From contig JAJZFA010000037.1 in NCBI GenBank assembly GCA_021805565.1, positions 1 to 64,000 on the forward strand: a stretch of 64,000 nt of DNA. Direction: 5' to 3'. Below the pieces are notes generated by a model that worked only from the letters and a program-made list of their open reading frames with translations, ran no database searches and was not told the origin of the DNA. This document shows, piece by piece, positions 3,501 to 19,646 of the stretch. Position 1 is the first letter of the stretch. Every line of letters starts with the position of its first letter. A program made the translations under genes and the position numbers. Source of the DNA: Pseudomonadota bacterium (lineage in GTDB: Bacteria; Pseudomonadota; Alphaproteobacteria; Acetobacterales; Acetobacteraceae).

Positions 3501-3951
3501 CCGGTTCCATTACCGTACCCGCTCGGCCATACCCATTGGCTTCCAGGTATTCCGCCAGTTTTTCCGGTTTCACCTGACCATCGACGGTCAGGTCCATGCT
3601 AGCCCCGGCGAAAGCCGATCGCGGCGGCACGCGCTGCACCAGCGCGTTCACGGTGGTCAAGACGATGCGCGGCCCGGCCGGCTTTTCCAGCAGGCGTGCC
3701 AGGGTGGCGATGCGTTCGGATACCAACGCCGGGTTCGGCGACACGCGGTCGTAGGGCAGGCAATCCCAGGCCGGAAACCGCAGTATGTCGGCTTCCGGCA
3801 TGACAAACGCCAGCGCCTCGGCCAACCGAGCCATGCGGGAGTCGTCGCGGGCGACGTGAAGGATGCTGCCGGTATGCTCGCGGCGGCGCTGGGCCAGCAG
3901 AAACGCGTCCCAGCCTTCCGGCGCGCCCCATATTTTAATCGGATCGCTCAT
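505..3951 (-). CDS. mfd: Transcription-repair coupling factor Mfd
   Basis: This 1148-residue protein is the normal length for Mfd, the ATP-driven translocase that removes RNA polymerase stalled at DNA lesions and recruits UvrA. The order of parts fits: an N-terminal UvrB-like module, a CarD-like RNA-polymerase-interaction domain near residues 475-560 (GDLVVHQEYGIGRYDG), then the RecG-like helicase motor. The Walker A motif GDVGFGKTE lies near residue 623 and the DEEQHFG Walker B near 724, followed by SAT-like TLTATPIPRTL and the GRVGRGKQRG motif VI. The C-terminal TRCF domain is present. Its ATG overlaps the stop of sdhE by four bases (ATGA), so the two genes are probably translationally coupled. 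Identification is secure. Confidence 0.97.
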   Translation of the reverse strand: MSDPIKIWGAPEGWDAFLLAQRRREHTGSILHVARDDSRMARLAEALAFVMPEADILRFPAWDCLPYDRVSPNPALVSERIATLARLLEKPAGPRIVLTTVNALVQRVPPRSAFAGASMDLTVDGQVKPEKLAEYLEANGYGRAGTVMEPGEYAMRGGIIDIFPSGEPEPVRLDLFGDTIESIRVFDPSSQRSAGKRKSLSLRPVSEVPLGKDSIARFRTGWRDLFGQDAAKDPIYLSISDGRRHPGMEHWVPLFHPTMENLLDYLPDAAVSLDNQSSEVLDARLEMIADHAQARKAIPRDGEVPYRPVPPAMLYLDREGWDEMLAFGPLLAFSPFAQPDGAGGVDGGGRPGPVFAQSAAGPGVNVFDQLRGQAERWKSEGRRVVVAAWTRGSRERLTNLLREHGFKDAAQEDNLAAVRRKPAGSVSLVVLGVERGFVAERMALVGEQDLLGERISRPPRRRKRADQFIAEATEIAEGDLVVHQEYGIGRYDGLATLHVTGAPHDCLRLIYDGGEKLFLPVENIEVLSRYGSEHQGATLDKLGGAGWQTRKAKMKQRIRDMAGELIRIAALRKMREAETMAPPEGTWDEFCARFQFVETEDQARAIADVLEDLSAGKPMDRLICGDVGFGKTEVALRAAFVAAMSGSQVAVVVPTTLLARQHFRTFTARFAGLPIKIGQLSRMVTAKDANEVRRNLASGEINIVVGTHALLAKSVEFSDLGLLIVDEEQHFGVAHKERLKAMKADVHVLTLTATPIPRTLQLALTGVREMSVIATPPVDRLAVRTFIMPFDSVVIREALQRERFRGGQVFCVVPRVEDLQRMSDRLKEIVPDARTVQAHGRLAPTELERVMTEFGDGKYDILLSTNIVESGLDMPAVNTLVIYRADMFGLGQLYQLRGRVGRGKQRGYAYLTWPPNHRLSVAAEKRLTVMQTLDALGAGFTLASHDLDIRGAGNLLGDEQSGHIREVGIELYQQMLEDAVTDIRAGEGVRAGQERDWTPNISLGLPVLIPEAYVRDLPVRLGLYRRIGALASDGESDAMAAELVDRFGKLPEEVENLLGVVALKRACREAGVEKLEAGPKGMVISFRGNAFANPAGLVRWLSGKGGLVRLRPDHKLAIVREMDVLTRLKFARDTLKSLDQIVRQAKAA

Positions 3952-4244
3952 TTTATCTGGAAATCCCGCATGCGGCGGAGCATTGACGTTTCGGCGTCCG
4001 GCGGGATCGGCACGCGGCCGGTCAGCCAGTCGGCCAGATCGGTGTCAGGCAGGTCCATAACGGATTCCAGCGCATCGAGTTCGGTATCGGTCAGGCCGGC
4101 GACGCAGGCGCGCACGAAGCCGCCGATCATCAGGTCGTTTTCGAACGTCCCGCGATGGGTGGACCGGAATAAAAGGCGGCGGCGACGGACATCATGGGTG
4201 TCATGCGACCCCATGGCCGGTACGATTCGATCTGGTTCGGTCAT
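3948..4244 (-). CDS. sdhE: FAD assembly factor SdhE (succinate dehydrogenase assembly factor 2)
   Basis: A 98-residue DUF339/Sdh5 protein. This family helps attach FAD covalently to the flavoprotein subunit of succinate dehydrogenase in the cytoplasm. The family signature RGTFEND (the RGxxE motif) is at about residues 32-38, preceded by the basic RRRRLLFRSTH stretch, and the acidic helix ending DTDLADWLTG is also typical. The gene sits directly upstream of mfd with a 4-base overlap and is divergent from recG, an arrangement seen in other alphaproteobacteria. The start chosen is the ATG at 4244; a second in-frame ATG 10 codons in (MGSHDT) is also possible. Confidence 0.93.
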   Translation of the reverse strand: MTEPDRIVPAMGSHDTHDVRRRRLLFRSTHRGTFENDLMIGGFVRACVAGLTDTELDALESVMDLPDTDLADWLTGRVPIPPDAETSMLRRMRDFQIK

Positions 4245-4287
4245 TGGCAGGTTGTCATATAGCGGTGCCCCGCATAGCTGTCAGCCC

Positions 4288-6345
4288 GTGAACGCCGCAC
4301 AACTCGCCCCACTTTTCGCGCCCCTGACCAGTCTTCGCGGCATAGGACCCGCCGTGGCTGGGCTGATCGCGCGCGCGGCGGGCGGCGACCGGGTGGTGGA
4401 TTTGCTGTTTCACATGCCCGAGTCCTATCTGGACCGCACCGCCAAACCCTCCATCCGCGACGCCAAGTCCGGCACGGTGGCGACGTTGACGGTGGAAGTG
4501 GTGCGCCACGAACGGCCCGCCGCATCCCGCCAGCCATGGCGCATCGTCGTCAAGGACGACACTGGGATGGCCGAAATCGTGTTCTTCCGTTTCACGCGGG
4601 AGGCACAGACCCCGCCGGGCACCCGGATCGCCGTCTCTGGCAAGCTGGACATGTTCAACGGGCGGCTGACCCTCGCGCACCCAGACCATCTTGTTCCGGC
4701 GGATCAGGCTGGCCGCATTCCGGCGATCGAGCCGGTCTGGCCGCTGACCGCAGGGTTGTGGCCCCGGCAGGTGGCGGCGGGGCTGGCGCTGGCGCTGGCG
4801 CTGCTGCCGGATCTTCCCGAATGGCAGGATCCGGCGCTGCTGAAACGGGAAAAATGGCCGGCGTTCGGCGAGGCGATCCGGACGGTCCAGGCGCCGGACA
4901 CCGCGCCACCGGATCGCCGGATGCGAGCCCGTTTGGCATACGACGAACTGCTTGCCGGTCAGGTCGCCACGGCCCTGGTTCGCGGCCGGGTACGCGCGCG
5001 ATCCGGTGTACCGCTGATCGGCGATTCCCGCCTGCGCGACGAAGCAATGCGGCGTTTCGGCTTCGCGATGACCGCGTCGCAGGAAAAGGCGCTGGGGGAG
5101 ATCGACGCCGATCTTGCGTCGCCGCGCCGGATGCTGCGGCTGCTACAAGGCGATGTCGGGTCCGGCAAGACGCTGGTCGCGGTGCTGGCGATGCTGCGCG
5201 CGGTGGAAGCCGGCAAACAGGCGGCGCTGATGGCACCGACCGAGGTGCTGGCCAAACAGCATCACCGTGTGCTGTCGCGGCTTTGCCCGGTTCCTGTCGC
5301 GCTGCTGACCGGTTCGGTCAAGGGGAAGGAGCGCGCTCGTATCCTGCGCGGCATCAAGGATGGGTCGCTGCAAATCGTCGTCGGTACCCATGCGCTGTTC
5401 CAGGACGCGGTGGACTACCGCGACCTGGCCGTCGCCGTGATCGACGAACAGCATCGGTTCGGCGTCAACCAGCGGCTGACCCTGGGGGCGAAAGGCGAAC
5501 GAACCGACGTTTTGATCATGACCGCGACGCCGATTCCGCGGACGCTGCTGCTGACCCAGTGGGGTGAGATGGATGTCAGCCGTCTGACCGAAAAGCCGGC
5601 GGGGCGGCTGCCAGTACGCACCACGCTGCATTCGCTGGGTACGATGCAGACCGTGCTGGAAGGGATCGGCCGCAAGCTGGAAGAAGGCGCTCGGGTGTAT
5701 TGGGTATGCCCGCTGGTCGCCGAAAGCGAAGCGTTGGATGTCGCCGCCGCCCAGGAACGGTTCATCGATTTGCAGCGTTTGTTTGGCGACTGTGTCGGGC
5801 TGGCGCATGGGCAGCAAACGCCGGAAGTGCGGGACGCCGCTTTGGCCGCGTTTGCCGCCGGTACGATCCGGCTGCTGGTCGCGACGACGGTTGTCGAGGT
5901 CGGCGTCGATGTGCCGGAGGCGTCCGTGATGGTGATCGAACACGCCGAACGGTTCGGACTGGCGCAGCTTCATCAGTTGCGCGGGCGCGTCGGGCGCGGC
6001 GCCGATGCCAGTTTCTGCCTGTTGCTGCATGAGGACTGGGTGTCCGAAACCGCTCGCCGCCGGCTGACGCTGCTGCGCGACACCGAAGACGGGTTTTTAA
6101 TCGCCGATGAGGATTTCCGCTTACGCGGCGGCGGCGATGCGCTGGGCACCCGGCAGGCCGGCTTGCCGGGGTATAAACTGGCAGACCCCGATGCGCATGA
6201 ACACCTGTTGCAAATGGCCCATCGCGATGCGGCTGTCCTGCTGTCGCGCGATCCGCGACTGGAAACCCCGCGCGGCCAGGCAGTCCGGTTGCTGCTGCGG
6301 CTGTTCGAGCGGACCGCCGCCATGCGGACGCTCGCGGCCGGCTGA
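4288..6345 (+). CDS. recG: ATP-dependent DNA helicase RecG
   Basis: RecG is the branch-migration helicase that regresses stalled replication forks and processes Holliday junctions. The 685-residue protein has the N-terminal helix-hairpin wedge region (LTSLRGIGPAVAGLIARAAG), an OB-like wedge domain around residues 60-160, Walker A GDVGSGKT near 289-296, the DEQHRFG Walker B near 385-391, MTATPIPRTL, and the motif VI region QLRGRVGRGAD. The frame is open far upstream, antisense to mfd, but similarity to RecG begins at the GTG at 4288 (VNAAQLAPLF), 43 bases from the divergent sdhE start. I therefore take GTG as the start. No ATG is better placed. Confidence 0.95.
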   Translation: MNAAQLAPLFAPLTSLRGIGPAVAGLIARAAGGDRVVDLLFHMPESYLDRTAKPSIRDAKSGTVATLTVEVVRHERPAASRQPWRIVVKDDTGMAEIVFFRFTREAQTPPGTRIAVSGKLDMFNGRLTLAHPDHLVPADQAGRIPAIEPVWPLTAGLWPRQVAAGLALALALLPDLPEWQDPALLKREKWPAFGEAIRTVQAPDTAPPDRRMRARLAYDELLAGQVATALVRGRVRARSGVPLIGDSRLRDEAMRRFGFAMTASQEKALGEIDADLASPRRMLRLLQGDVGSGKTLVAVLAMLRAVEAGKQAALMAPTEVLAKQHHRVLSRLCPVPVALLTGSVKGKERARILRGIKDGSLQIVVGTHALFQDAVDYRDLAVAVIDEQHRFGVNQRLTLGAKGERTDVLIMTATPIPRTLLLTQWGEMDVSRLTEKPAGRLPVRTTLHSLGTMQTVLEGIGRKLEEGARVYWVCPLVAESEALDVAAAQERFIDLQRLFGDCVGLAHGQQTPEVRDAALAAFAAGTIRLLVATTVVEVGVDVPEASVMVIEHAERFGLAQLHQLRGRVGRGADASFCLLLHEDWVSETARRRLTLLRDTEDGFLIADEDFRLRGGGDALGTRQAGLPGYKLADPDAHEHLLQMAHRDAAVLLSRDPRLETPRGQAVRLLLRLFERTAAMRTLAAG

Positions 6346-6499: not shown

Positions 6500-7369
6500 A
6501 TGTCTTTCACGGTCGGTATCGGAATTATCACCTATAATCGCGTCGGATTGCTGAGCGACACCATCGACCGGGTGCGGGCGTTAACCCGGACCCCGGATGC
6601 CGCGCTGGTGGTAGCCGACGACGGGTCAACCGACGGCACGCTGGCGATGCTGCGCGACAAGCGGATTCCGGTTGTCACCGGCGTTAACATGGGCATTGCC
6701 TGGAACAAAAACCGAGCCTTGTTTCTGTTGTCGCGCATGCTGGGCTGCGAAACGACGATCTTGCTGGAAGACGATACAAGCCCGGTACGGGCGGGGTGGG
6801 AAACCGAATGGATCAACGCGGTCCGGCGATGGGGGCATGTTAATTTCGCGGGCGGTTGGATGCGCGAACATTTCGTTTCCGGGGCCGGTTCGGCCGCCGA
6901 CCCGGTGCTGTCTTCCATGGTCACGGCGCAATGTTCGGCCTATTCCGCCGATTCGCTGACGTTCGGCGGTTATCTGGACCCACGATTCAAGGGATACGGG
7001 CATGAACACGTGGAACATACGCGCCGCCTGATCCGGGCCGGCTATGGCGGTACGGACGCAGTCATCGATGGCCAGGAGAAGGTGCGGTATTACATGATCG
7101 ACGGCGATCTGGCCGTGGCCCCCAGCAAAAGTTATTTCGACAGCGAGCAAGAGCAGCGCAATCTTCATCTCGCCCGGCGCATCATGGGCGAGCAGGGCTA
7201 CCGAACCCCATGGGGTGCCGATACCGAGATGCGTCAGTTCCGGTCGGAGATCGAAAGCGCCATGAGCGAGGGCCCGGAGCGGTTCCGGCTGACAGCGGCA
7301 TCGGGCACTTCCCGGCCAGGCCAGGCGTCTGCTCCGGGATTGCTGACCCGCCTGTTTCGCCGCACCTAG
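6500..7369 (+). CDS. Glycosyltransferase family 2 protein
   Basis: A 289-residue cytoplasmic-looking GT-A fold glycosyltransferase that probably transfers a sugar from a nucleotide-sugar donor during surface glycan synthesis; donor and acceptor cannot be read from sequence. It opens with the typical first strand VGIGIITYNR, followed by VADDGSTDG (residues 38-46) and the metal-binding-type acidic motif LLEDDTS near 88-94. A GYGHEHVEHTRRL segment near 175 matches the acceptor-side E-x-x-x-H region of the family. The start is the ATG at 6500, since upstream codons (LARRTWPYR) do not belong to the fold. It lies three bases upstream of the next, much larger glycosyltransferase and is probably co-transcribed with it. 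Confidence 0.85.
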   Translation: MSFTVGIGIITYNRVGLLSDTIDRVRALTRTPDAALVVADDGSTDGTLAMLRDKRIPVVTGVNMGIAWNKNRALFLLSRMLGCETTILLEDDTSPVRAGWETEWINAVRRWGHVNFAGGWMREHFVSGAGSAADPVLSSMVTAQCSAYSADSLTFGGYLDPRFKGYGHEHVEHTRRLIRAGYGGTDAVIDGQEKVRYYMIDGDLAVAPSKSYFDSEQEQRNLHLARRIMGEQGYRTPWGADTEMRQFRSEIESAMSEGPERFRLTAASGTSRPGQASAPGLLTRLFRRT

Positions 7370-7372
7370 GCC

Positions 7373-10300
7373 ATGGCGACGCCGGAGCCGGAAGACGTGC
7401 GGGTGACGGCGGCGATGCGGGCGATGGCCGGCTTTTTCGACGCCGCGTGGTACCGGCGGCGGTATCCCGATATCGTCGCCGGCGGCCATGATCCGTTGCG
7501 GCATTTCATCCGCAACGGCCTGGCGGAACAACGCGACCCGAATCCGTTCTTCGACAGCGCCTGGTATGCGCGACATTATCCGGATGCCGCGACGGCGGGG
7601 GCGCATCCGCTGCTGCATTATCTGCAAACCGGCGCTGCCTTGCTGCACAACCCACACCCCGGTTTCGACGCCGCCTGGTATGCCGCGGAACATCCCGGCG
7701 CTGCCGCCAATCCGTTACTCTATCATGTCAAAACCGGGCAGGCGCTCGGTTATACAACCGAAAAATCATTGGATATCCGGAACTATATGCCGTCGGACCA
7801 ACCCAAACGGGCGATGCCGCCGCGGGCGATCGTCGATGTTGTCATTCCGGTCTATCGTGGGCTGGAGGAAACCCGGACCTGTATCGAATCCGTGCTGGCC
7901 GACGCCGGCAAGCCGCTTGGTCGCATCATCGTCATCGACGACTGCTCCCCAGAACCGGTACTGCCGGCCTGGCTTGACGAACTGGCGGCGGCTGGCCGGA
8001 TTCACTTGTTGCGAAATCCGGTAAATCTGGGGTTCGTCGCTTCGGTCAATCGCGGTATGGCGGCCGCCGGCCGGCGCGATGTCGTGCTGCTGAACAGCGA
8101 TACGCGGGTTCCCGCCGGATGGCTGGCCCGCCTGACCGGGCAGGCCTATGCCGCGCCGCGGATCGCGTCGGTCTCGCCCTTTTCCAATAATGCAACGATC
8201 TGCGGATACCCCGGCAACCAGTCCAGTCCGCTGGCATTCGGCCTGACCCTGGCGGCCATCGACGCCGCTTGCCAAACGGCCAATGCCGGCCGCTTCGCGG
8301 ATGTGCCGACGACCGTTGGATTTTGCATGTATATCCGGCGGAAAGCCCTCGACGAGGTTGGCCTGTTCGATGCGGAACGCTTTGGCCTCGGCTACGGCGA
8401 GGAAAACGATTTCTGCCTGCGCGCCACGGCCCTGGGCTGGCAGCATCGTCTCGCCTGCGACACGTTCGTCTATCACAAGGGGTCTGTCAGCTTCGGCGGC
8501 AGCGCGCTTCGGCTGATGCGCCGGGCGATGGCTTTGATACAGGAGCGGTTTCCGGATTATCCCGCCGCTGTCGCCCGGCATGTCAGAGCCGATGCGGTCG
8601 CCCCCTTCCGGTTCGCGGCGACGGCAGAGCTGTTGCGGAAATCGGGGCGGCCGGTGGTGTTGATGGTGGCCGGCGATCCCGGCGGCGGCGTGCGGCGGCC
8701 CATCGCCGATGGGCCTGACCGGGCGCATGTGTTGCTGTTGCGTGCGACCGATCGCGGTGCCGAACTTTCGGTGCCGGCCCTGCCTCATCATCCGGTGCTC
8801 GCCTTGCCGGCCGGCCGGCTGGACGACATGGCAGCGGTACTGCTGTCGATGAACGTGTCGCGGGTACATGTCCACCGTCTTCAGGGTTTCGACATGGATA
8901 TCCGGGCGCTGATCCGGCGGCTGAATGTGCCATTCGACCTGACGGTTCACGATTATGACGCGATCTGTCCGCAAACCTATTTGCTGGCCTTGCCCGATGG
9001 GGTGTATTGCGGCGAGCCCGGAATAGCCGGCTGCAATGCCTGCATCGCCAATCGCGGCGCTCGCGGTGCCAGCGATATCGTGACGTGGCGGGCGGACCGT
9101 GCCTGGCAATTCCGCGATGCCAGCCAGGTGTTTTGTCCCAGCCAGGACGCCATGGACCGGCTGGACCGGTATGGTTTGGCCGCTCGCGCGGTGTTCGCGC
9201 CACCCGGAGAGGCGACGGCCGCGGCCGTCAGGCGGCAGGCCGCACGGCCGGGCCAGGGCAAACTGCGGATCGCCATACTGGGCAGCCTGACCGATCGCGC
9301 CGGGGCACGCACCGTTGCGTCGGTGGCGGAAAATGCCGATCCGTCGGCGATCGAACTGCACCTGATCGGCCGTATCGAAGCCACGGTGTCCCGCCGGGCG
9401 TTGCGGCGGATGACGATCGCCGGGCACTACGACGATGCGGCGCTACCCGCTTCGATCGAAACGATCGCGCCGCATCTGATCTGGTTTCCGGCTGGGTGGC
9501 CGGACCCCTCCGGCGGCACGCTTGACGCGGCGATCGAATCCGGCTGCCCCATCGCCGCGACCGATATCGGCGCGCACACGGAACGACTTGGCGGCCGGCC
9601 CTTGACCTGGCTGGCCGGTTTCGCCACCTCGCCGGCAGCCTGGATCGCCCTGTTCGGGGATATCCGGACAGCGTTGACCGCCGAATCGGCGCGGCGGAAA
9701 GCCGCTCGTGGTCCGGCCATTACCAAAATCCGGGCGACCGGCGGTTTTGTCGCATCGCGCGCTGCCCAGGTCGCGGCGCGGCCGAGCATCGCTATCGTGC
9801 CGGAACGGTTCGATAATGGCGCACCGACACCGTGCGCCTTCATCCGGCTGTTGCAGCCGCTGCATCATCCGGCGATTGCCGGCGGGTTCGATGTGCGGGT
9901 GGAAACAGCGGCAACGATCCTGCATCGTCGGGCTGACATTATCATAACACAACGATTTGCGATGCCCGGTGTCCCGGCGGCGGATCGTCTGGCCGAACAT
10001 GCCAGGGCCATCGGCGCGACCCTGGTGTTCGATCTGGACGACGATCTGCTGCATCTTCCACGCACCCATCCAGACGCCGCCGACCTGCGTCCGAAGGCCG
10101 GCATCGCCCGCCGGATGCTGGGTGCGGCGGATCGTGTTTGGCTGTCCACGCCCGGCCTCGCCGAACGGCTGGCGTCGCTTCGCCCCGACGCCTTGGTAAT
10201 GCCGAACGGTCTGGATGAGCGTATTTGGGCGCTGCCGCCCATGCCATTGCGCGACGAACCGGTGCGGATTCTGTGCATGGGTACAACCACGCATGACCGC

Positions 10301-10831
10301 GATTTCGCGCTGGCCAGCCGGGCGCTGTCTCGCTTGAAGGACGACTACGGAGATCGTGTCGAAATAGACGTGATTGGCATGACCAGCCGGCCGCTTGCCG
10401 CCAGCATCGGCCGGATCGATGTGCCCCAAAGCGCGAGCCTATCCTATCCCGGCTTCGTTAACTGGCTGCGGTCGCGCCAGCCGCGATGGCATATCGGTCT
10501 GGCGCCGTTGCTGGATACGTCCTTCAATCGCTGTAAATCGGCCGTGAAGGCGATGGACTATGCGGCACTGGGTCTGGCTGTGCTGGCGTCCGATACGCCG
10601 GTCTATCGCGGGTCGGTCGCCGATGGTCCGGCCGGGCGGCTTGTGGCGAACACCGATGCCGCCTGGTACGCTGCCCTGGACCGGCTGATCCGCGACCGCG
10701 ACACGCGCCACGACATCGCCGGCCGGGCGCGTGAGGCATTCCTGGCCAGCGCCAGCCTGGCCAGTCAGGCGACGGTTCGGCGGGACGCCCTGTTGCGGCT
10801 TTGCGGCGTGCGGAGCAGCGATGCCGCCTAG
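7373..10831 (+). CDS. Giant multidomain glycosyltransferase, paralogue 1 (intact GT2 and C-terminal GT4-like domains)
   Basis: A 1152-residue protein built as three N-terminal repeats of about 38 residues (starting near 21, 59 and 97; core FDxAWYxxxxPD...HPLLHY), a GT2 domain (154-375), a middle GT4-like domain (about 425-770) and a second GT4-like domain (about 800-1140). The GT2 motifs are intact: VIPVYRG, DDCS (189-192), NSDT (241-244) and GYGEENDFCLRA (340-351). The last domain is also intact: VFDLDDDLLHLP, MPNGLDERIW and NRCKSAVKAMDY with Lys1055. The middle domain looks damaged: its glycine loop reads VAGDPGGGVRRPIADG, shorter than in the paralogue, and the usual Glu of the PETYSFT-type motif is Asp711 (PDPSGG). 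Four cysteines (532, 546, 554, 557) may bind a metal. It starts three bases after the previous gene and overlaps the next by 11 bases. Confidence 0.85.
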   Translation: MATPEPEDVRVTAAMRAMAGFFDAAWYRRRYPDIVAGGHDPLRHFIRNGLAEQRDPNPFFDSAWYARHYPDAATAGAHPLLHYLQTGAALLHNPHPGFDAAWYAAEHPGAAANPLLYHVKTGQALGYTTEKSLDIRNYMPSDQPKRAMPPRAIVDVVIPVYRGLEETRTCIESVLADAGKPLGRIIVIDDCSPEPVLPAWLDELAAAGRIHLLRNPVNLGFVASVNRGMAAAGRRDVVLLNSDTRVPAGWLARLTGQAYAAPRIASVSPFSNNATICGYPGNQSSPLAFGLTLAAIDAACQTANAGRFADVPTTVGFCMYIRRKALDEVGLFDAERFGLGYGEENDFCLRATALGWQHRLACDTFVYHKGSVSFGGSALRLMRRAMALIQERFPDYPAAVARHVRADAVAPFRFAATAELLRKSGRPVVLMVAGDPGGGVRRPIADGPDRAHVLLLRATDRGAELSVPALPHHPVLALPAGRLDDMAAVLLSMNVSRVHVHRLQGFDMDIRALIRRLNVPFDLTVHDYDAICPQTYLLALPDGVYCGEPGIAGCNACIANRGARGASDIVTWRADRAWQFRDASQVFCPSQDAMDRLDRYGLAARAVFAPPGEATAAAVRRQAARPGQGKLRIAILGSLTDRAGARTVASVAENADPSAIELHLIGRIEATVSRRALRRMTIAGHYDDAALPASIETIAPHLIWFPAGWPDPSGGTLDAAIESGCPIAATDIGAHTERLGGRPLTWLAGFATSPAAWIALFGDIRTALTAESARRKAARGPAITKIRATGGFVASRAAQVAARPSIAIVPERFDNGAPTPCAFIRLLQPLHHPAIAGGFDVRVETAATILHRRADIIITQRFAMPGVPAADRLAEHARAIGATLVFDLDDDLLHLPRTHPDAADLRPKAGIARRMLGAADRVWLSTPGLAERLASLRPDALVMPNGLDERIWALPPMPLRDEPVRILCMGTTTHDRDFALASRALSRLKDDYGDRVEIDVIGMTSRPLAASIGRIDVPQSASLSYPGFVNWLRSRQPRWHIGLAPLLDTSFNRCKSAVKAMDYAALGLAVLASDTPVYRGSVADGPAGRLVANTDAAWYAALDRLIRDRDTRHDIAGRAREAFLASASLASQATVRRDALLRLCGVRSSDAA

Positions 10832-13800
10832 GCCGACACCCGTCGCCGGCGCCGTTTCGATGCGCCAGATAGCCGGTGCGATCGACGCGGACTGGTATCG
10901 CGCCCGATATCCCGACAGCGCGGGCCTTGCGCCGCTGGACCATTTCATCCGTTTTGGTGCCGCACAAAACCGGGATCCGAATCAGTTCTTCGACAGCGCG
11001 TGGTATGCCGGACACAATCCCGACGTGGCCGCCGCGGGCCTGATCCCGCTGGTGCATTATATCCAGTCCGGTGCAGCGGAATTGCGCGATCCGCATCCGC
11101 GGTTCGATGCCAGGTACTATGTTGGCCAGCATCCGCGAGCCGCCGCCAATCCGTTGCTGTATCACCTTCAAACCGGGCGGACGCTTGGTTATCTAACCGA
11201 ACGCCCGGTCGCTATCCGCGATTACCTGCCGTCGGCGGGGACTGGCCCGGTCATGCCGGACGGTGTCGTCGCCGACGTTGTCATCGTGGTCCAGGGTGGC
11301 CTGGACGCCACCCAGCGCTGTGTACGGACTTTGCTCGCCGAACGCGGCGCGCCGCTTGGGCGGATCGTCGTCGTCGATGACCGAACGCGGGAACCGGCTT
11401 TGCGGGCGTGGCTGCGGACGCTGGCGGCGGACGGGCATATCGACCTTATCCGCAATCCGGAACGTCTTGGTTTTGCCGCATCGGCCGGCCGCGGCATCGA
11501 AGCCGCCGGGGACCGCGACGTCGTTTTGCTGGATAGCGTTATGGAACCGCCCCCTGGCTGGCTGTCCCGGCTGAGCGCGCATGCCTGGTCGCAACCGGAT
11601 ATCGCCTCGGTGTCGCCGCTGACCGGACCTGTCGCGGTAGCGCCGGGGGAACCACCGGCGGGGATCGATGCGTTATGCCGGTCGGTCAACGCCGGCCGTT
11701 CGGTGGAAACGCCGGATATCTACGGCGCATGCGCCTATATCCGGCGGGCGGCGTTGCAGGCCACCGGGGCGTTCTGTCCCGACACGGCCGAGCAGGGGAA
11801 TTTCTGGCAGCGCTCCGCCGCGGCCGGGTGGCGCCACGTTATTGCCTGCGACATCTTCGTTCCTGGTCCGACGGGTCCGGCCGCGGAAGCCACGGTCGCG
11901 TTCCGGTTCGCGGTGACAGCGGCATCGTTCCGCCGATCCCGACTGCCGGTTATTCTGATGGTCTCGCACGCGCTTGGCGGCGGCGTCAGGCGGCATATCG
12001 ATCTTCTCACGGAACGCTGTCGCGGTTCGGCCCATATTCTATTACTACAAGGAACCGAACGCGGCGCCGCGCTGTTCCTGGCTTCGGCACCGGACCAACC
12101 GGTTGTAACGCTGCCGCCGGATCGGCTCAACGACCTGATTGCGGTTCTGCGCAGCGCCGCCGTTTCGCGCATTCACGTCCATCACCTTATGGATACCGGC
12201 ATCGATGTCCGCCTGCTGATAAGCCGGCTTGGCGTGCCGTTCGACGTAACGATACATGACTATTATGCGCTTTGTCCGCAAATCAATCTGCTGCCCTGGC
12301 CAGATGGACTGTATTGCGGCGAACCCGGACCCGCCGGGTGCAATCGGTGCATCGCCAATCGCGGATCGCATGGCGCCCGCGATATCGTGTCGTGGCGCCG
12401 TGGCCATAATTGGTTGTTCTTGCAGGCGGATCGGGTGATCTGCCCGGCCCTGGATGTGAAAAAGCGCCTGGATCGTTACGGAGTGGGCGACCGGGCGATT
12501 GTGGTTCCCCACGAAGACCAGACCGGATCCGCGTGGCCGATCCGTCGTCCGCCGTTGGCGGGGCCGTTGCTGCGTATTGGTCTTCTGGGCGTGCTGGCCG
12601 ATCACAAGGGCGCGCGTACAGTGGCCGACTTCGCCACCGCGGCGGAGCCTGGAACCGTGGACCTGCATCTGATCGGTCATCTGGAACATAATTTTCCTAA
12701 GCCAGCCGTTCGGTTTATCGAAATAACCGGTGTGTACCAGGACCGCTATCTTCCGGCGATTCTGCAACGGATTGACCCGCATGTTCTGTGGTTTCCGGCG
12801 TCCTGGCCGGAAACCTACAGCTTTACGCTCAGCGCCGCGATCGCCTCGGGGCTACCTATTGCGGCGGCCGATATTGGATCGTTTCAAGAACGGTTAGCCG
12901 GGCGTCCAATGACCTGGCTGGTGGATCACCGATCGGGGCCAAAGGCATGGATGGCGGTATTCGATGAAGTCCGCGTCGCCTTGCGCAACCGAACGCCGGA
13001 TAAGGCGGTGGGCCGTCCGGCCGGTGTTTCGGGATTTTACCCCGGCCGCTATATGGCGCCCGCCGAACCGGTCCGGCCGCCGCGCGGCAAGCCGCCGATC
13101 GCCATCGTGCCGGAACGGGATGCAAACGGCGGCTTGACCGCCGATGCTTATATCCGGCTGCTGCAGCCGCTGGATCATGCGGCCCATAGCAATCGGTTCG
13201 ATATCGTGCTGGCCAATAGCGAGACTGTCTTCGGCAGCGGTGCCGCTATTGTCGTCACGCATGGGCATGCGATCGCCAGCGTGGAGTTGGCGAACCGGCT
13301 CGCCGGCCATTGCCGCGCTTCGGGGGCGAGGTTGGTGTACGATCTGGATGAGGACGAGACCGGTCTTTTAACGACCCATCCGGACACCGTCCCGCGACGG
13401 ACGCTGACCGCCGCGGTCCGGCGGATGCTGACGGTGGCGGATGCGGTCTGGGTCGCGACGCCGGCGCTGGCCGAACGGATCGCGCCGATCCGGCCGGACG
13501 CGATCGCGATCGGCAGCCGGCTGGATGAACGGCTGTGGACCGTCCCGCCTGCCCCCCGTAAAGCGCCCGGAGACCCGGTTCGTATTCTGTGCATGGGTGC
13601 CCCCACGCAGGACCGCGATTTCGCGCTGATCGAGCCAGTGCTGCTGCGGCTTAAGGCGGCGTATGGTGGCCGGATCGAGATCGGCGTGCTGGGCATGACC
13701 AGCGGGATGGACCTGCCGGCGGGGTTGAGTCGTGTCCTTCCGTCTGCCCACGCATTCAGGTCCCACCCTGGATTGGCCGATTGGTCGATATCGGCCCTGC

Positions 13801-14129
13801 CTGGTTGGGATATCGGGCTTGCCCCGCTGGCGGATACGCCGTCGAACCGGACCCGGTCGCCGATTCAGGCCATTCTGTATGCGGCGCTGGGCCTGACTGT
13901 GCTGGCGTCGGATGTGCATGCCTATCGCGGATCGATCGCCGACGGATCGGCCGGACAGCTTGTACCGAACGATCGCAATGCCTGGTATGCCGCATTGGAT
14001 TGGCTGATTCGCGACCCGGCATTGCGTCGGCGCCGGTCGGACGCGGCGCACAGGGCGTTTCTGGCCGGCGGCACGCTGGCCAGTCAGGCCGCACAGCGGC
14101 AGGCCGCCTTGGGGCTTGTGTGGCCCTGA
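10821..14129 (+). CDS. Giant multidomain glycosyltransferase, paralogue 2 (intact middle GT4; degenerate GT2 and C-terminal domains)
   Basis: A 1102-residue tandem paralogue of the preceding gene with the same layout: N-terminal WYxxxxPD repeats (about 21-130), GT2-like region (151-345), middle GT4 (376-740) and C-terminal GT4-like region (about 770-1095). Here the middle domain is the intact one: LMVSHALGGGVRRHIDLL (379-396), HDYYALCPQ, and PETYSFTLSAA with Glu664. The GT2 region has lost its key residues: NSDT has become DSVM (238-241) and GYGEENDFCLRA has become TAEQGNFWQRSA. In the last domain NRCKS has become NRTRS (Arg1012 for Lys) and PNGLDERIW has become GSRLDERLW. The ATG at 10821 overlaps the previous gene by 11 bases; the ATG at 10860 (MRQIAG) is an alternative start. 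Confidence 0.82.
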   Translation: MPPRPTPVAGAVSMRQIAGAIDADWYRARYPDSAGLAPLDHFIRFGAAQNRDPNQFFDSAWYAGHNPDVAAAGLIPLVHYIQSGAAELRDPHPRFDARYYVGQHPRAAANPLLYHLQTGRTLGYLTERPVAIRDYLPSAGTGPVMPDGVVADVVIVVQGGLDATQRCVRTLLAERGAPLGRIVVVDDRTREPALRAWLRTLAADGHIDLIRNPERLGFAASAGRGIEAAGDRDVVLLDSVMEPPPGWLSRLSAHAWSQPDIASVSPLTGPVAVAPGEPPAGIDALCRSVNAGRSVETPDIYGACAYIRRAALQATGAFCPDTAEQGNFWQRSAAAGWRHVIACDIFVPGPTGPAAEATVAFRFAVTAASFRRSRLPVILMVSHALGGGVRRHIDLLTERCRGSAHILLLQGTERGAALFLASAPDQPVVTLPPDRLNDLIAVLRSAAVSRIHVHHLMDTGIDVRLLISRLGVPFDVTIHDYYALCPQINLLPWPDGLYCGEPGPAGCNRCIANRGSHGARDIVSWRRGHNWLFLQADRVICPALDVKKRLDRYGVGDRAIVVPHEDQTGSAWPIRRPPLAGPLLRIGLLGVLADHKGARTVADFATAAEPGTVDLHLIGHLEHNFPKPAVRFIEITGVYQDRYLPAILQRIDPHVLWFPASWPETYSFTLSAAIASGLPIAAADIGSFQERLAGRPMTWLVDHRSGPKAWMAVFDEVRVALRNRTPDKAVGRPAGVSGFYPGRYMAPAEPVRPPRGKPPIAIVPERDANGGLTADAYIRLLQPLDHAAHSNRFDIVLANSETVFGSGAAIVVTHGHAIASVELANRLAGHCRASGARLVYDLDEDETGLLTTHPDTVPRRTLTAAVRRMLTVADAVWVATPALAERIAPIRPDAIAIGSRLDERLWTVPPAPRKAPGDPVRILCMGAPTQDRDFALIEPVLLRLKAAYGGRIEIGVLGMTSGMDLPAGLSRVLPSAHAFRSHPGLADWSISALPGWDIGLAPLADTPSNRTRSPIQAILYAALGLTVLASDVHAYRGSIADGSAGQLVPNDRNAWYAALDWLIRDPALRRRRSDAAHRAFLAGGTLASQAAQRQAALGLVWP

Positions 14130-14255: not shown

Positions 14256-15071
14256 ATGCTTCAACTCACCCCGTTACCCGATAGAGGCGCGATCGCGATC
14301 GAGGGCGACGACCGCGTGGCGTTCCTGCAAGGCCTGGTGTCCAACGACGTGGAAGCCGTTCGGCCCGGGCACGCGGTCTGGGCCGCGTTGCTGTCTGCTC
14401 AGGGCAAGTGGCAGGCGGATTTCTTCGTATTCAGCGACGGCAACACACTGCTGCTGGATTGCGAGGCCGCGCACATCCCGATGCTGATCCAGCGACTGTC
14501 GCGCTATCGGTTGCGGATGCAGGTCAGCTTGCGTCCCGCCCCTGACCTGCACGTGTATGTCGCTTGGGATGGAATGCCGGATGTGGATGGCGTTATCGCA
14601 CCCGATCCCAGGCTTCCGGACTTTGCATGGCGGATTCTGGCCCGCGACTCGCTGGCCGCGACTGCGTCTGTGGAAGACTGGGACCGTCGGCGGCTGGCGG
14701 CCGGCCTGCCCGACGGATCGAAGGACATGGAGCCAGATCGTAGCGTGCTGCTGGAAGCCGGGTTCGACGAACTGGCCGGGGTGTCGTGGTCGAAAGGCTG
14801 CTATATGGGTCAGGAACTGACCGCCCGGACCAGGTATCGAGGCTTGATCAAGCGCCGCCTGCTGCCGGTGGCGATCAATGGTGCGCTGCCATTGCCGGGA
14901 ACCCCGGTGTTGAAAGCGGGCACCGAAGTCGGGACGATGCGATCGGGCCGCGACAAAATCGGCCTGGCATCGATCCGGCTGGATGCGATCGGTGCGACAC
15001 TGCTTTGCGGGGACGCGACCCTCGTGCCCTTTACGCCCGCCTGGATGCGCCTGCCGGTCGCCGTATCGTAA
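14256..15071 (+). CDS. ygfZ: Folate-binding protein YgfZ (GcvT-like, iron-sulfur cluster maintenance)
   Basis: A 271-residue member of the YgfZ/IBA57 family, tetrahydrofolate-binding relatives of the GcvT aminomethyltransferase that support assembly or repair of certain Fe-S enzymes. The diagnostic motif K-G-C-Y-x-G-Q-E is present as SKGCYMGQELTARTRYRG around residues 179-196, including the conserved Cys. The N-terminal GDDRVAFLQGLVSNDVEAV is also typical. It stands alone on the plus strand, convergent with the minus-strand polysaccharide genes that follow. The start is the ATG at 14256, matching the usual N-terminus of the family. Confidence 0.93.
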   Translation: MLQLTPLPDRGAIAIEGDDRVAFLQGLVSNDVEAVRPGHAVWAALLSAQGKWQADFFVFSDGNTLLLDCEAAHIPMLIQRLSRYRLRMQVSLRPAPDLHVYVAWDGMPDVDGVIAPDPRLPDFAWRILARDSLAATASVEDWDRRRLAAGLPDGSKDMEPDRSVLLEAGFDELAGVSWSKGCYMGQELTARTRYRGLIKRRLLPVAINGALPLPGTPVLKAGTEVGTMRSGRDKIGLASIRLDAIGATLLCGDATLVPFTPAWMRLPVAVS

Positions 15072-15184: not shown

Positions 15185-16510
15185 TTACAGGCGGCGGGCG
15201 ATCAGCGCCCCAATCTCGTTTTGCCATTGCCAGATCCCGTTGGTCTGGCCGGAAAAGCTTGGCTCGCCGCCGATCGCTTCGGCCGATGCGAAGCCGGCCG
15301 CCAGGCCTATTCCCATTAACCCATCGATGACGGCACCATTCGCGGCGAGAACATTACATTGCTTATCCACCAGCGGCTGCGCGCCGGGTTGCACCGCGAG
15401 CAACGCAACCGGATCGCCCGCCGCGTTCAGGACGGGCAGGGCGCGGGGCCGATATCCGAGCGCGGCCACAATGACGGAGGCGTCATCCAATATGTCCAGC
15501 GCGGCTGGATCGATATCCGGCACCAGCCGGTGCAGCCGTAGCCTGGGTTCGGGTGCCCGGCCAGCTATACCGCGTGCCGACATTGCCAGTTCACGGGAAT
15601 CCAGCCGGAACCCCGCAAAGCGGAAGACGAAGCCGCTCAAGGGACAGATATCGTCCGGGCCGAATTCGTCGTAACCGTCGGCCAGCGCGGCTTCTGCCGA
15701 TGGATAGAAGATTCTCAACGGGCGCCGATGCAGCAGCGTGACGGCCCCGGCACTCAATTCTTGCCCGAAGGGCGCGCGCAGCACCGCGTTGGCGCAGGCC
15801 ATGGAACTGCTCGAACTGCCGACGATGGCAACGCGCCGGGCCGGGCCTGCGTCCAGGCGGCGTCCGATCTCGGTCAGTCCGGCAGCGGTAAGAGCAGCGT
15901 CCGACTGGATCAGTTTGGCGGCATAGGTGGGCAGTAGGGGCACGCCGCCAACACGCTGACTTTCAAGGCATTCGTCTGGCTGATGGCCGCCGGTCGCCAG
16001 GATGACGAACCGCGACTCGATGGTCCGGTGGGAGCCATCGGCTGTACGCCGTACCAGGGTTTGCCATCGGCCATCTTCGCCTTGTCTCGTATGGATTGCT
16101 TCATGCCCGGTCAAAACCGGGTTGCCGCCGGCGGATATATATTCGTGTAGCGCGCCGCCGATCGACGCCATCAATTGTCCGGCCAGCCCCAACGGTACTG
16201 TTCCGTTTCCATGTGCCACGACGGCCACAGTGGCCGGACACTCTGTTAGACCGGCCAGGAACGGGTAGGGGTTTCCGATCACGCAATTAACCAGCGTGTT
16301 GGCGGCGGTGTCCGAATTGATCGCGTACGACCCGATTCGACCGCTGCCGATCGCTGGGCCGCGCTCGACGATTGCCAATCCCGCCGACAGAATACGATCG
16401 AGAATGCCGGCACGGCTCGCGGAAACCAAAGGCGCCAGACCGGCGGGGCCGCCGCCCACAATAAGCGCATTGACGGAGATATCCGGATCGCCGGTCATTG
16501 TTACGATCAT
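15185..16510 (-). CDS. FAD/NAD(P)-binding oxidoreductase, putative flavin monooxygenase
   Basis: A 441-residue flavoprotein with two Rossmann sites. The FAD site is LIVGGGPAGLAPL near residues 16-28, and a second nucleotide site is VAIVGSSSSSMACA at 227-240; FVILATGG near 168-175 is the usual ATG motif. Two dinucleotide folds with a GxSxSS second loop recall single-component flavin monooxygenases, including N-hydroxylating ones, but I cannot assign a substrate. The ATG at 16510 overlaps the stop of the upstream aminotransferase by four bases (ATGA), so the two are coupled and probably act on the same sugar or lipid. The reading frame continues further upstream, but those residues overlap the aminotransferase and do not look like this family. 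Confidence 0.72.
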   Translation of the reverse strand: MIVTMTGDPDISVNALIVGGGPAGLAPLVSASRAGILDRILSAGLAIVERGPAIGSGRIGSYAINSDTAANTLVNCVIGNPYPFLAGLTECPATVAVVAHGNGTVPLGLAGQLMASIGGALHEYISAGGNPVLTGHEAIHTRQGEDGRWQTLVRRTADGSHRTIESRFVILATGGHQPDECLESQRVGGVPLLPTYAAKLIQSDAALTAAGLTEIGRRLDAGPARRVAIVGSSSSSMACANAVLRAPFGQELSAGAVTLLHRRPLRIFYPSAEAALADGYDEFGPDDICPLSGFVFRFAGFRLDSRELAMSARGIAGRAPEPRLRLHRLVPDIDPAALDILDDASVIVAALGYRPRALPVLNAAGDPVALLAVQPGAQPLVDKQCNVLAANGAVIDGLMGIGLAAGFASAEAIGGEPSFSGQTNGIWQWQNEIGALIARRL

Positions 16511-17718
16511 CTCCCGGCCTCCACTGTCGCCAGCTCGGACCGCCCGGCGCGTCGCGATACGGGCCTGGGTCCGCACACCTGCCGGAATATGTCGCTGACA
16601 TGCCCCACATCTTCCACTGTCATGGAATCCGAAATCGGCAGCGCGATCACGCGGCGCGCGATCGTATCGGTTACCGTTAGATCGGCTGCGGTGCAGGTCT
16701 GCTGAAAATAAGGTTGCTGGGCGATATGGGGCACGAAATACCGGCCCGACCCTATGCCGCACCGTTCCAGGCCTGCCGTCGCCTGCTGCACGTTGCCAGC
16801 CATCCGTTCCGGCACGAGCACGGGCACGAACTGATGCGCCGTGCGGTTGCCCGTCATACGTTGAAATGTGAAGTCCGGCAGCAGCGTCCGATAACGCTCA
16901 TACAGGTCGTCGCGATGTTCGGCGATCGCCTCGAAGTCCTTCAGCTTGGTCAGCCCCAGCAGCGCGGTGGTTTCGCTCAGCTTGGAATTGAGCCCCGGCA
17001 TCGTCGCGCACCGGGGTTCGCCAAAGCCGAAATTGCCCATGGCGCGCAACGTGGCGATCAGGTCCCGGTCGGCGCAGTATATCAGGCCGCCTTCCGAGGT
17101 TGCGAACGCCTTGGTGGCATGCAGCGAGAACACCAGGGGAAACCGGCTATCGATACCGAATGCCTTGTCGTTGGCATCGAGGCTTCCCATCGACGCCGCG
17201 GCGTCGATTACCAGCGGAATACCGTATGCGTCCGACAATCTGGCGTAACGATCCAGATCGAGGCAATTGCCGAAGGTCGCGTTCGGCAAAATCACGGCGA
17301 TATCCGAACCGTATTGCTTCAACAAGGCGTCCTCGGCGGCGGCATCGGGCAGCCACGTTTCTGGATCGATGTCGCATAGCAACGGAGTCAGGCCGCACCA
17401 CAGCGCGGCATGCGCCGTGGCGGCGAAGGTAAACGACGGCATCAGCGCGAACCGGCCCCGGGGCTTCCAGCCCACCGCTTGCTTGATCGCCAGCATCAAC
17501 CCGATGGTAGCATTGGCGACCGTGACGCAGTCGCCTTTCGATTCGAATACGGTGGAAGCCACCCTGTCCTCGAAACGCGCATTGACTGGCCCATAGTTGG
17601 AGAAAATGCCGCTATCCTCGATTGCCGCGAGTTCCGGTGTCAGGGTGGACAGCCGGGGCGGATTGGGGCGGATGAACGGGATCGGTCGCTGTCTTCCGGC
17701 GCTGCGGCTATGTGCCAT
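16507..17718 (-). CDS. DegT/DnrJ/EryC1/StrS-family sugar aminotransferase
   Basis: A 403-residue PLP-dependent enzyme of the family that aminates keto-sugars of nucleotide-activated sugars for surface glycans. Visible family marks are FSNYGPVNARFED near the N-terminus, SFTFAATAHAALWCGLTPLLCDID (substrate and PLP loop), VIDAAASMGS near 170-179, and SLHATKAFATSEGG with the expected PLP lysine at Lys203. The start is the ATG at 17718 (MAHSRSAG); upstream codons of the open frame are antisense-like. It follows the FkbM methyltransferase by 25 bases and overlaps the flavin oxidoreductase by four, forming a three-gene module. Confidence 0.85.
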   Translation of the reverse strand: MAHSRSAGRQRPIPFIRPNPPRLSTLTPELAAIEDSGIFSNYGPVNARFEDRVASTVFESKGDCVTVANATIGLMLAIKQAVGWKPRGRFALMPSFTFAATAHAALWCGLTPLLCDIDPETWLPDAAAEDALLKQYGSDIAVILPNATFGNCLDLDRYARLSDAYGIPLVIDAAASMGSLDANDKAFGIDSRFPLVFSLHATKAFATSEGGLIYCADRDLIATLRAMGNFGFGEPRCATMPGLNSKLSETTALLGLTKLKDFEAIAEHRDDLYERYRTLLPDFTFQRMTGNRTAHQFVPVLVPERMAGNVQQATAGLERCGIGSGRYFVPHIAQQPYFQQTCTAADLTVTDTIARRVIALPISDSMTVEDVGHVSDIFRQVCGPRPVSRRAGRSELATVEAGR

Positions 17719-17743
17719 TCGATATGTCCTGGGTGGATCGCTG

Positions 17744-18517
17744 TTACCGGGCATCGAGGTGCCACACACGCTGCAAGAGGGAGAATTTTTGTCGTTGGCC
17801 CGGCGGCAAATCCGGATGCCCCGCTTTGCCGCGGGTGAAATAGGCGTTCGCACAGACCAGATCGCCCTCGAACCCGTCCACCGTTTCGATGCGCCGCAGG
17901 CGCAGGCCGAACGGTGCCAGCAGGGCCACAAGGTCGTGCAATAATTTCTGGTCTTTAAAAACCGGATAGAACCAGGCTTCCGTCTCGATCCCAAGCACGC
18001 CGTGCAGCAGGTCGCCGAATCCGGACAATACCTGATATTCATAGCCTTCGACATCGACTTTTATGACGTCGGGTGCCGGCACGTGTCCGGTTCTGTATAA
18101 CTCGTCGTCGCGGACACAGGCAACCGTGGCTTCTGCTTCCGGCTGGTACAGCGGCGCGATCTTATAGCCGGTTAGCACCGCCGGATCGTGTTCCAACAGC
18201 GACGAACATCCCGGCCAATGTGCCAAATGGAGGGTGTGGGCACCGGCAACCGCCGCCAGGCCGTTCTCCACCACCATCATTCCCGACGGCGACAGGCGCC
18301 GCAGGTTGGCCGCTTCCGCTGGATTGGGTTCGAATAATACGCTCCGCACTTTCCGGTGGTGCCGCCGCCATTTGTCCTGAAGCCCGCCCGCGGACCCCAC
18401 ATCCACGAGAATCAGCCGTCTGTTGTCTTCGGACGGGGCCGGAATATGGAAGTTGAACAAGACAAACCTCCGCGATTGGAATGAAATCGGAATGGACCGG
18501 CGATCTCGCGTCGCCAT
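17744..18517 (-). CDS. FkbM-family methyltransferase
   Basis: A 257-residue SAM-dependent methyltransferase of the FkbM type, which usually O-methylates sugars or polyketides. The SAM site is LVDVGSAGGLQDKW, followed by the acidic strand end VLFEPNPAEAANL, and the second signature PDVIKVDVEGYEYQVLSGF is clear. It heads the three-gene module with the aminotransferase and flavin oxidoreductase. The ATG at 18517 is chosen; a TTG five codons upstream (18532) is possible. About 76 bases separate it from the next upstream gene, the GT4 at 18594. Confidence 0.85.
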   Translation of the reverse strand: MATRDRRSIPISFQSRRFVLFNFHIPAPSEDNRRLILVDVGSAGGLQDKWRRHHRKVRSVLFEPNPAEAANLRRLSPSGMMVVENGLAAVAGAHTLHLAHWPGCSSLLEHDPAVLTGYKIAPLYQPEAEATVACVRDDELYRTGHVPAPDVIKVDVEGYEYQVLSGFGDLLHGVLGIETEAWFYPVFKDQKLLHDLVALLAPFGLRLRRIETVDGFEGDLVCANAYFTRGKAGHPDLPPGQRQKFSLLQRVWHLDAR

Positions 18518-18593: not shown

Positions 18594-19646
18594 CTATTTC
18601 GTGATTGATGCGGAGACGATTTGCGCGAGACGATCGCAGTACTGTTCCAGGCCGTACTTGCTTACCATCATGGCCCGCGCCCGCTGGCCCATCGCCGCGG
18701 CTTCGGCCGGGTTTTCCAGTAACTGGATCATGGCTTTTCGCAATCCGGCGACGTCGCCCGGTTCCACGAAGACCCCGGTCACGCCCGGAATAACAAAGTC
18801 CGCAAGTGCGTCCGTCCGCGTTACCACGACCGCCCGTCCCATCGCCATCGCTTCGGCAATGACCGCATAACCGCAGGCGTACCGGGCAGGATATAACGGA
18901 ACTACAACAAAAAGCGAGGTGGCGTACAAATCGCGCAACCTGGCGTAAGATCCATAAGATCGCGCTTCGGCATTGTCCGGCCAATCGACCGATCCGGTTG
19001 CCCCGCCAGGCGGCATCCAGGTGCTGGCGGCGGCGATGCGAACCTGAACGGGCAGGCCGCGAACCGCTTCGGCTAGCGTCGCGAAATCGCGGTTTGCCGC
19101 GCCCGCGCTGGCGATAACGGCCCGCTCCACAATAAAATCTATATCGAAATAATTTGTATCGGCGGCATATCCGGTTGCGTGACACCGCGAAGCGGGGATA
19201 CCGAGCACCGACTGTGTAAGATCGCGTAATGAGGTGGACAGGCAATGAAAATGCAGATTCGGCAAGCGCCGCAACACCGGCGCAAGCAGCCGCAATTTGG
19301 GTGAATCAAGGTGATGTCCGTGAAACATCGTATGAACCGGTGTTCGCGAAAAGCACGACATCGACGCCAGGGCGATGGGGATGCCGATATCCTCGCCAGA
19401 CGCGATGATCGCGTCGAATTCGCCGGCCCGCGACGCAACCAGGCTGGCCAGCGCCATGCGCGGCCGGCCGGCGCGCCTAAACAGGCGGGGTATCGCCGGC
19501 AATGGTCCATCGAGCGCCGTGGCGGATATCAGAGTCCCGCCGAATCGTTCCAAAAAAACGCTGAACTCGGTGCGCGGATCGGTCTGTTGGTTGAGCGGCT
19601 CCGACGGATGGCGGCCTGAAAGAACCCAGGCGTGGCGCAATGACAA
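18594..19646 (-). CDS. Glycosyltransferase family 4 protein
   Basis: A GT-B fold retaining glycosyltransferase of 350 residues. The C-terminal lobe is typical: VVVPLYPARYACGYAVIAEAMAMGRAVV with VTRTDALADFVIPGVTGVFVEPGD behind it. Only the second glutamate of the usual E-x7-E motif is obvious (AEAM); the first position is not Glu. The N-terminal lobe includes HTMFHGHHLDSPKLR. There is no in-frame ATG before residue 63, so the start is taken as the TTG at 19646, with AAGGA ten bases upstream. It follows the polymerase gene by 31 bases and is probably in the same transcript. Confidence 0.8.
   Translation of the reverse strand: MSLRHAWVLSGRHPSEPLNQQTDPRTEFSVFLERFGGTLISATALDGPLPAIPRLFRRAGRPRMALASLVASRAGEFDAIIASGEDIGIPIALASMSCFSRTPVHTMFHGHHLDSPKLRLLAPVLRRLPNLHFHCLSTSLRDLTQSVLGIPASRCHATGYAADTNYFDIDFIVERAVIASAGAANRDFATLAEAVRGLPVQVRIAAASTWMPPGGATGSVDWPDNAEARSYGSYARLRDLYATSLFVVVPLYPARYACGYAVIAEAMAMGRAVVVTRTDALADFVIPGVTGVFVEPGDVAGLRKAMIQLLENPAEAAAMGQRARAMMVSKYGLEQYCDRLAQIVSASITK

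Follow-up and report, generated by a model that had tools for sequence, protein, structure and literature searches.

Two adjacent genes encode three-domain glycosyltransferases

We analysed a 64,000-nucleotide stretch of DNA from a member of the Acetobacteraceae (contig JAJZFA010000037.1 of assembly GCA_021805565.1, positions 1 to 64,000; hereafter the window), in which two adjacent plus-strand genes encode large, homologous glycosyltransferases. Copy 1 (7373..10831) encodes 1152 amino acids and copy 2 (10821..14129, read from the ATG at 10821) a paralogue of 1102 amino acids, with the ATG of copy 2 overlapping the stop codon of copy 1 (10821..10831). The two proteins are 49% identical across 1132 columns. 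Pfam assigns the same build to both: about 150 residues of repeats are followed by a GT2 domain, a middle GT4 domain and a C-terminal GT4-like domain, the GT2 match (PF00535) having an E value of 8.5e-17 in copy 1 and 3.2e-10 in copy 2. This agrees with an earlier note, made from the DNA letters alone, which had described two neighbouring homologues with three transferase domains. Searches of Pfam gave no match to the N-terminal repeats of either copy. These regions (7373-7822 and 10821-11261) each contain three repeats of the type FDxxWYxxxYPDxxxxGxxPLxHF, and similar repeats occur in a 1129-aa frame elsewhere in the same genome (G000:C62:48976-49770).

The GT2 domain (7823..8557) and the C-terminal domain (9776..10777) of copy 1 have intact sites, with NSDT at 8093-8104, GYGEENDF at 8390-8413 and NRCKS at 10526-10540. 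Its middle domain (8645..9667) is degenerate and carries the changes H434G, H611P, A640T, K643A (9299..9301), E711D and T712P (both in 9503..9508), in addition to an altered glycine loop (GGGVRRP, 8681..8701) from which His443 has been lost. Conversely, the middle domain of copy 2 (11943..12986) is intact, with GGGVRRH at 11976-11996, HKGAR at 12603-12617 and PETYS at 12807-12821; its GT2 domain (11262..11870) is degenerate, with DSVM at 11532-11543, AEQGNF at 11787-11804 and a loop deletion, and so is its C-terminal domain (13089..14105), with NRTRS at 13845-13859 and a D to L change at 13875-13877. The motifs quoted in the earlier note were each recovered once and in place: NSDT at residue 241, GYGEENDF at 340, NRCKS at 1052 and Asp711 in copy 1, and DSVM at 238, AEQGNF at 323, GGGVRRH at 386, PETYS at 663 and NRTRS at 1009 in copy 2, whose Glu664 is numbered from ATG 10821.

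AlphaFold2 models of copies 1 and 2 had a mean predicted local distance difference test score (pLDDT) of 87.2 and 88.4, respectively, and Foldseek searches with them matched GT-A enzymes and GT-B enzymes resembling PimA, MshA and GlgM. The degenerate middle domain of copy 1 was modelled with a lower mean pLDDT (83.7) than its GT2 (92.6) and C-terminal (92.4) domains, and residues 436-439 of the glycine loop scored below 50.

Residue losses are confined to complementary domains

As a yardstick, we used the columns that are invariant in 35 single-copy rows, amounting to 53 positions in the GT2 domain, 38 in the middle domain and 31 in the C-terminal domain. These rows comprise 24 of the genus and 11 from outside it, single meaning for the latter that one copy was present on the fetched piece. 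They come from a 46-row alignment of frames scoring at least 500 bits, for which 24 of at least 80 loci were taken together with 37 loci bearing G handles and the window; loci repeating a G-handle contig were left out, and weaker homologues (e.g. L064, L070 and L078) lie outside the counts. By this measure copy 1 of the window has lost 0/53 GT2, 6/38 middle and 0/31 C-terminal positions, and copy 2 has lost 22/53, 0/38 and 11/31. Losses in copy 1 are thus confined to the middle domain (6/38 against 0/84 elsewhere; Fisher p = 7e-4) and those in copy 2 to the other two (0/38 against 33/84; p = 4e-7), both p values being descriptive, as positions are not independent events.

In leave-one-out controls, middle-domain losses among the 35 single-copy rows numbered none in 28 rows, one in three, two in three and four in a Nitrosomonas outgroup. 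GT2 losses occurred in 11 of the 35 rows (maximum 4/57) and C-terminal losses in eight (maximum 7/38, in a Solibacter outgroup). Three single-copy rows that match window copy 1 in middle-domain branch length (0.41-0.42; G011, G021 and palsa) have no middle losses at all. Chance or an alignment artefact is ruled out by the leave-one-out control and the Fisher tests. A sequencing or frameshift artefact was also rejected: copy 1 has changed by substitutions at scattered sites and by a single in-frame gap of four residues, and its frame is open and free of stops.

In the middle domain, His443 falls at the glycine loop of PimA, Lys643 at its KG lysine and Glu711 at the first glutamate of its EX7E motif (HMMER alignment, in which the loop match alone is weak). 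The PimA EX7E glutamates are E274 and E282 in the portion of PMC3898925 consulted, and E711 corresponds to E274. At these three positions copy 1 has Pro, Ala and Asp, and copy 2 has His, Lys and Glu. Among the single-copy rows the histidine is present in 33 of 35 and the lysine, within an HKG motif, in all 35. The EX7E motif is incomplete even in intact members, residue 719, at the place of its second glutamate, being A, T, R or V across the 35 rows. The earlier note had held that the middle domain of copy 1 lost both its glycine loop and its PETYS-type glutamate; the second part stands (Asp711), but the glycines are kept, and what has gone is His443 together with four residues just behind. 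For the GT2 domain we considered the metal-binding aspartate of NSDT and the EEND-type acidic motif, which we take to have their usual roles. Both are present in copy 1, unlike in window copy 2, which has lost Asp243 (D243V), Asp346 (D346N), His368 and part of the GYGEEND loop, including E344Q. Missing from the C-terminal domain of window copy 2 are Lys1055, Lys1059 and the acidic residue 1062.

An alignment with single-copy relatives, which the earlier note had proposed as one check, found K643, E711, D243, E343 and E344 in all 35 rows; none of the relatives lacks any of these residues. As single-copy relatives keep all sites, the ancestor was complete.

Tandem relatives preserve different stages of loss

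Proteins of the same build were found in many Acetobacteraceae. Our sample of the genus covers 33 genomes, that of the window included: six have the tandem (G000, which is the window's, G025, G012, G010, G022 and G002), 24 have one copy and three (G013, G019 and G026) were unreadable. Copy 1 is cut by contig ends in G022 and in G002, where the last 137 residues remain. As several of the single copies lie near contig ends, we note that a whole-genome search with copy 2 gave no second strong match in these genomes.

All six tandem genomes have a copy 2 with a decayed GT2 site. N218, N241, T313, N345, H368 and F374 are lost in 6/6 copy 2 and in 0/5 copy 1 sequences; since every copy 2, including that of G002, lacks these six positions, GT2 decay looks old and would have come first, perhaps once. 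Five copy 2 sequences, all but that of G002, also have a deletion with imprecise ends in the loop that precedes GEEND. The C-terminal site of copy 2 is decayed in four of the six (window, G012, G010 and G002), a pattern that on the copy 2 trees requires more than one loss unless the site was regained, and trees of different parts conflict. The middle site of copy 1 is lost in only one of five readable tandem genomes, the window's. Other copy 1 rows (G025, G012, G010 and, in part, G022) have no GT2 losses, one middle loss each and 0-1 C-terminal losses; other copy 2 rows, leaving G002 aside, have 17-24 GT2 losses, 0-1 middle losses and, in the C-terminal domain, none in G022 and G025, five in G012 and eight in G010. 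Judged from these sequences, reciprocal loss appears to be complete, as far as could be read, only in the window species, and the window state is the last step of a series and not the general tandem condition. The earlier proposal of duplication followed by complementary loss thus survives for the window species, but the losses were neither a single reciprocal event nor general across tandem genomes. A640 is changed in all five readable copy 1 middle domains, in 0/5 copy 2 sequences of the main clade and in G002 copy 2, and by this sign copy 1 may have been drifting earlier. Every copy seen with a decayed GT2 site lies next to a full or partial copy 1. Across the six tandem genomes, stop codons interrupt none of the decayed domains, and none has been deleted entirely.

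In phylogenetic analysis, the copy 2 sequences group together (ultrafast bootstrap 100), as do the copy 1 sequences in a separate clade (99). The trees exclude G034, which does figure in the invariant-position counts; the middle-domain tree was built without window copy 1 and G002, and the tree of N-terminal plus C-terminal parts without G002, G014, G022 copy 1 and low-coverage rows. In both the full tree and the middle-domain tree, copy 1 groups with several single-copy lineages to the exclusion of copy 2, which would imply later losses of copy 2. A joint clade of copies 1 and 2 was not rejected by the approximately unbiased test (p = 0.11 for the middle domain and 0.45 for the N-terminal plus C-terminal parts), and the duplication may or may not predate the tandem clade, an earlier date entailing losses in other lineages. 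Gene conversion as the source of the intact C-terminal sites in G022 and G025 copy 2 is not favoured, as both still group with the other copy 2 sequences (99) in the tree of N-terminal plus C-terminal parts.

A probable division of labour between the two copies

We consider it probable that the two genes encode a co-translated partner pair that has been subfunctionalised domain by domain, with dead domains retained for folding or docking. A three-domain glycosyltransferase, probably serving a surface glycan, would have been duplicated head to tail in a Rhodopila/Acidisphaera-like lineage. As read from sequence, copy 2 has lost its GT2 site and, in some lineages, its C-terminal site, and copy 1 of the window species has lost its middle site, which copy 2 there retains at all invariant positions. 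Both genes would now be needed in this species, with copy 1 carrying out two of the transfers (GT2 and C-terminal) and copy 2 the third (middle). The pair would be made from one message with coupled translation: the copy 2 ATG overlaps the end of copy 1 in five of the six tandem genomes and lies 19 bases past it in the sixth. Dead domains would persist through a part in folding, docking or activation of the live ones, for which a heteromer is the simplest arrangement. We favour a heteromer because of coupled translation and paralogy, given that duplication of an ancestral homomer yields one; that the ancestral enzyme was a homomer is our guess. The gene overlap and the constraint on dead domains are suggestive of a physical complex of copy 1 and copy 2. 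A more specific proposal, possible and offered tentatively, is an obligate six-domain heteromer in which the dead domains of each chain dock to or activate the live ones of the other. The genus would then keep the stages between a self-sufficient three-headed enzyme and two mutually dependent ones, among them a duplicate that is redundant and has a single dead domain.

How the dead domains evolve bears on whether they still matter. Rate ratios were computed on a fixed tree for 41 of 45 rows, four partial rows being left out. The copy 2 GT2 domain is fast (ratio 1.45-1.90 from the copy 2 ancestor and 2.20 on the stem), whereas the copy 2 middle domain has low ratios in three genomes (0.58-0.61; window, G022 and G025) and unexceptional ones in G012 (0.83) and G010 (1.03). 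Ratios of nonsynonymous to synonymous substitution rates (dN/dS) for the decayed GT2 domain were 0.19 (G012/G010), 0.28, 0.34 and 0.32 (window versus G012, G025 and G002) and 0.43 (G022/G025), against 0.14-0.21 in seven pairs of intact GT2 domains; these values are rough because GT2 dS between copies 2 is 0.7-1.5. Well below 1 and found in open frames, the decayed-domain ratios are the chief argument for a continuing mechanical role of the dead domains.

If, instead, the pair were two separate enzymes acting in sequence on the same lipid-linked glycan, with no complex, the dead domains would be slowly decaying leftovers. Decayed GT2 domains do evolve faster than intact ones, dN/dS reaches 0.43 for the copy 2 GT2 domain in G022/G025, and the jobs seem separable onto different chains. 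In Microvirga vignae (L078), GT2 plus middle domains (6636-10037) and a C-terminal domain (10025-11077) occupy two adjacent frames, an arrangement in which they may function as separate proteins; in many distant relatives, the match extends over GT2 plus middle only. However, the decayed copy 2 GT2 domain of G012/G010, at 0.19, is close to the intact middle domain of the same pair (0.16) and to the intact copy 1 GT2 domain (0.15), and none of the six genomes has lost a decayed domain entirely. We regard separate sequential enzymes as unlikely.

Less likely again is that the altered domains are not dead at all and have changed donor or acceptor or become sugar-binding sites. The parallel A640 changes in the five readable copy 1 middle domains fit such a new function, as do the mostly confident models of the degenerate domains; WsaF, in the part of its literature consulted, is an active enzyme whose PHPSYPPLE motif seems to be without the first EX7E glutamate. 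The losses nevertheless strike generic nucleotide-sugar sites (K643, the histidine after the glycine loop, D243 and the GYGEEND loop), making such a new function quite improbable. It is very improbable that copy 2 is an incipient pseudogene, the middle activity having become dispensable, and that the loss in copy 1 is unrelated: a partial GT2 plus middle paralogue elsewhere in the genome (34% identical to copy 1, of which it is the best other match there) could back up the function, and G002 copy 2 has decayed in all three domains, but window copy 2 keeps 38/38 middle positions while losing 33/84 elsewhere, its middle domain is its slowest part, and similar GT2 plus middle paralogues are among the listed matches of many single-copy relatives whose middle domain stays intact.

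Several observations weigh against the partner-pair account that we prefer. The earlier note's suggestion that the pair supplies one full set of three activities is borne out for the residues of the window species, but in G002 copy 2 has lost 16/53, 5/38 and 11/31 positions; division of labour is then not the sole outcome, and this copy is possibly a whole pseudoenzyme retained as a partner. G022 and G025 copy 2 retain the C-terminal site, and D243 and D346 persist in copy 2 of G012, G022, G025 and G010, so their GT2 domains might not be entirely dead. The middle-domain rate of window copy 1 (1.31) is slightly raised but lies inside the single-copy range (0.54-1.49) and is not an outlier; being unremarkable, it leaves the argument for copy 1 to be carried by the kind of residues lost more than by rate. 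E711D is weak by itself, as (E/D)X7(E/D) is accepted in this family according to the excerpts consulted, and the roughness of dN/dS counts here too. Activity of the C-terminal domain is assumed, since by spacing the first EX7E glutamate is lacking throughout the family (position 1054 is S, C, A or G in 34 covering rows); the second acid, D/E1062, is kept in covering rows except window copy 2.

Comparison with known glycosyltransferase pairs

The nearest parallel is the EXT1-EXT2 heparan sulfate polymerase, in which paralogues with several transferase domains form a tight heterodimer and the pseudo-GlcA-transferase domain of EXT2 is dead, according to the portion of PMC9675754 consulted. The same portion states that EXT1 can perform both reactions and that its authors found no EXT2 with the ancestral aspartates. 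Both systems have paralogous multi-domain partners with complementary or pseudo domains, here at the level of sequence. EXT1-EXT2 differs in being animal, in belonging to other families and in its one-sided loss, whereas here intermediates exist within one genus and the complex is a proposal; the obligate heteromer raised above would be a bacterial, stepwise counterpart. The chondroitin synthases CHSY and CHPF likewise combine a multi-domain transferase with a mainly stabilising partner, but the text seen of PMC12748766 reports activity for one partner and none for the other, whereas each window copy keeps something that the other has lost. Both animal pairs belong to different families from the present one and resemble it in principle only.

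Among solved structures, PimA, MshA and GlgM (2gej, 3c4q and 6tvp) share the GT4 retaining fold and motifs of the middle and C-terminal domains. They differ in length (361-393 residues) and in having one transferase per chain; relative to them, the present family has Ala, Thr, Arg or Val for the second middle-domain glutamate and a C-terminal domain without the first. Polypeptide GalNAc-transferases and GlfT2 are the nearest solved GT-A folds to the GT2 domain, at 13-21% identity, from which the substrate is not readable.

In duplication-degeneration-complementation, duplicates lose parts reciprocally and both are then retained. Complete single-copy relatives and reciprocal losses in the window, as read from sequence, fit this scheme, with the difference that what is lost here, in a bacterium and with intermediate stages surviving, are the catalytic domains of a single polypeptide. 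Among the papers listed from the open-access literature, none described this locus or a bacterial pair of transferases that had lost domains reciprocally. Animal pairs with one dead partner are known, and the origin of such a partner is hard to trace without intermediates, as the consulted text on EXT2 (PMC9675754) illustrates. Here, single-copy, partly decayed and reciprocally decayed states occur within one bacterial genus, and the path from a self-sufficient enzyme to dependence on its own duplicate becomes testable by comparing or exchanging genes among relatives. Either copy taken singly would resemble a broken enzyme.

Neighbouring genes and minor observations

A small GT2 glycosyltransferase gene (6500..7369, plus strand, start codon uncertain; Pfam GT2 E value 5.8e-8) ends three bases upstream of the copy 1 start. 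It is the first gene of an apparent plus-strand operon with copies 1 and 2, next to which lies a ygfZ-like gene for a folate-binding protein (14256..15071, plus strand), the right-hand neighbour of copy 2. A homologue of the small GT2 gene adjoins the family in 15 of the 37 G-handle loci and is not found there in, for example, L125 and L132-L137. The ygfZ-like gene lies 3' of copy 2 in five of the six tandem genomes (in the sixth the contig ends first) and 3' of the single copy in eight of the 24 single-copy genomes of the genus, being absent from the fetched pieces of the other 16. On the minus strand, genes for a DegT aminotransferase (16507-18054), a GT4 enzyme (18594-19646) and a Wzy_C ligase-like protein (19678-21027) point, by neighbourhood only, to a surface glycan.

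Promoter and terminator scans gave two and four sites, respectively, against 1.5 and 6.2 in shuffles, and PHROGs matches were to two glycosyltransferase families. None of the other fetched loci showed the recG gene that lies upstream in the window. G002 copy 2 (L145:1496-5074) is an open frame of 1193 amino acids despite its losses in three domains. In G010 (L120), an in-frame TAG lies upstream of the copy 1 residue matching position 54; the N-terminal repeats of this copy may be cut, or it may start later. Long opposed frames occupy 505-6345 of the window, where mfd (505-3951, minus strand) opposes a plus-strand frame in which the real recG gene seemingly starts only about 1000 codons in.

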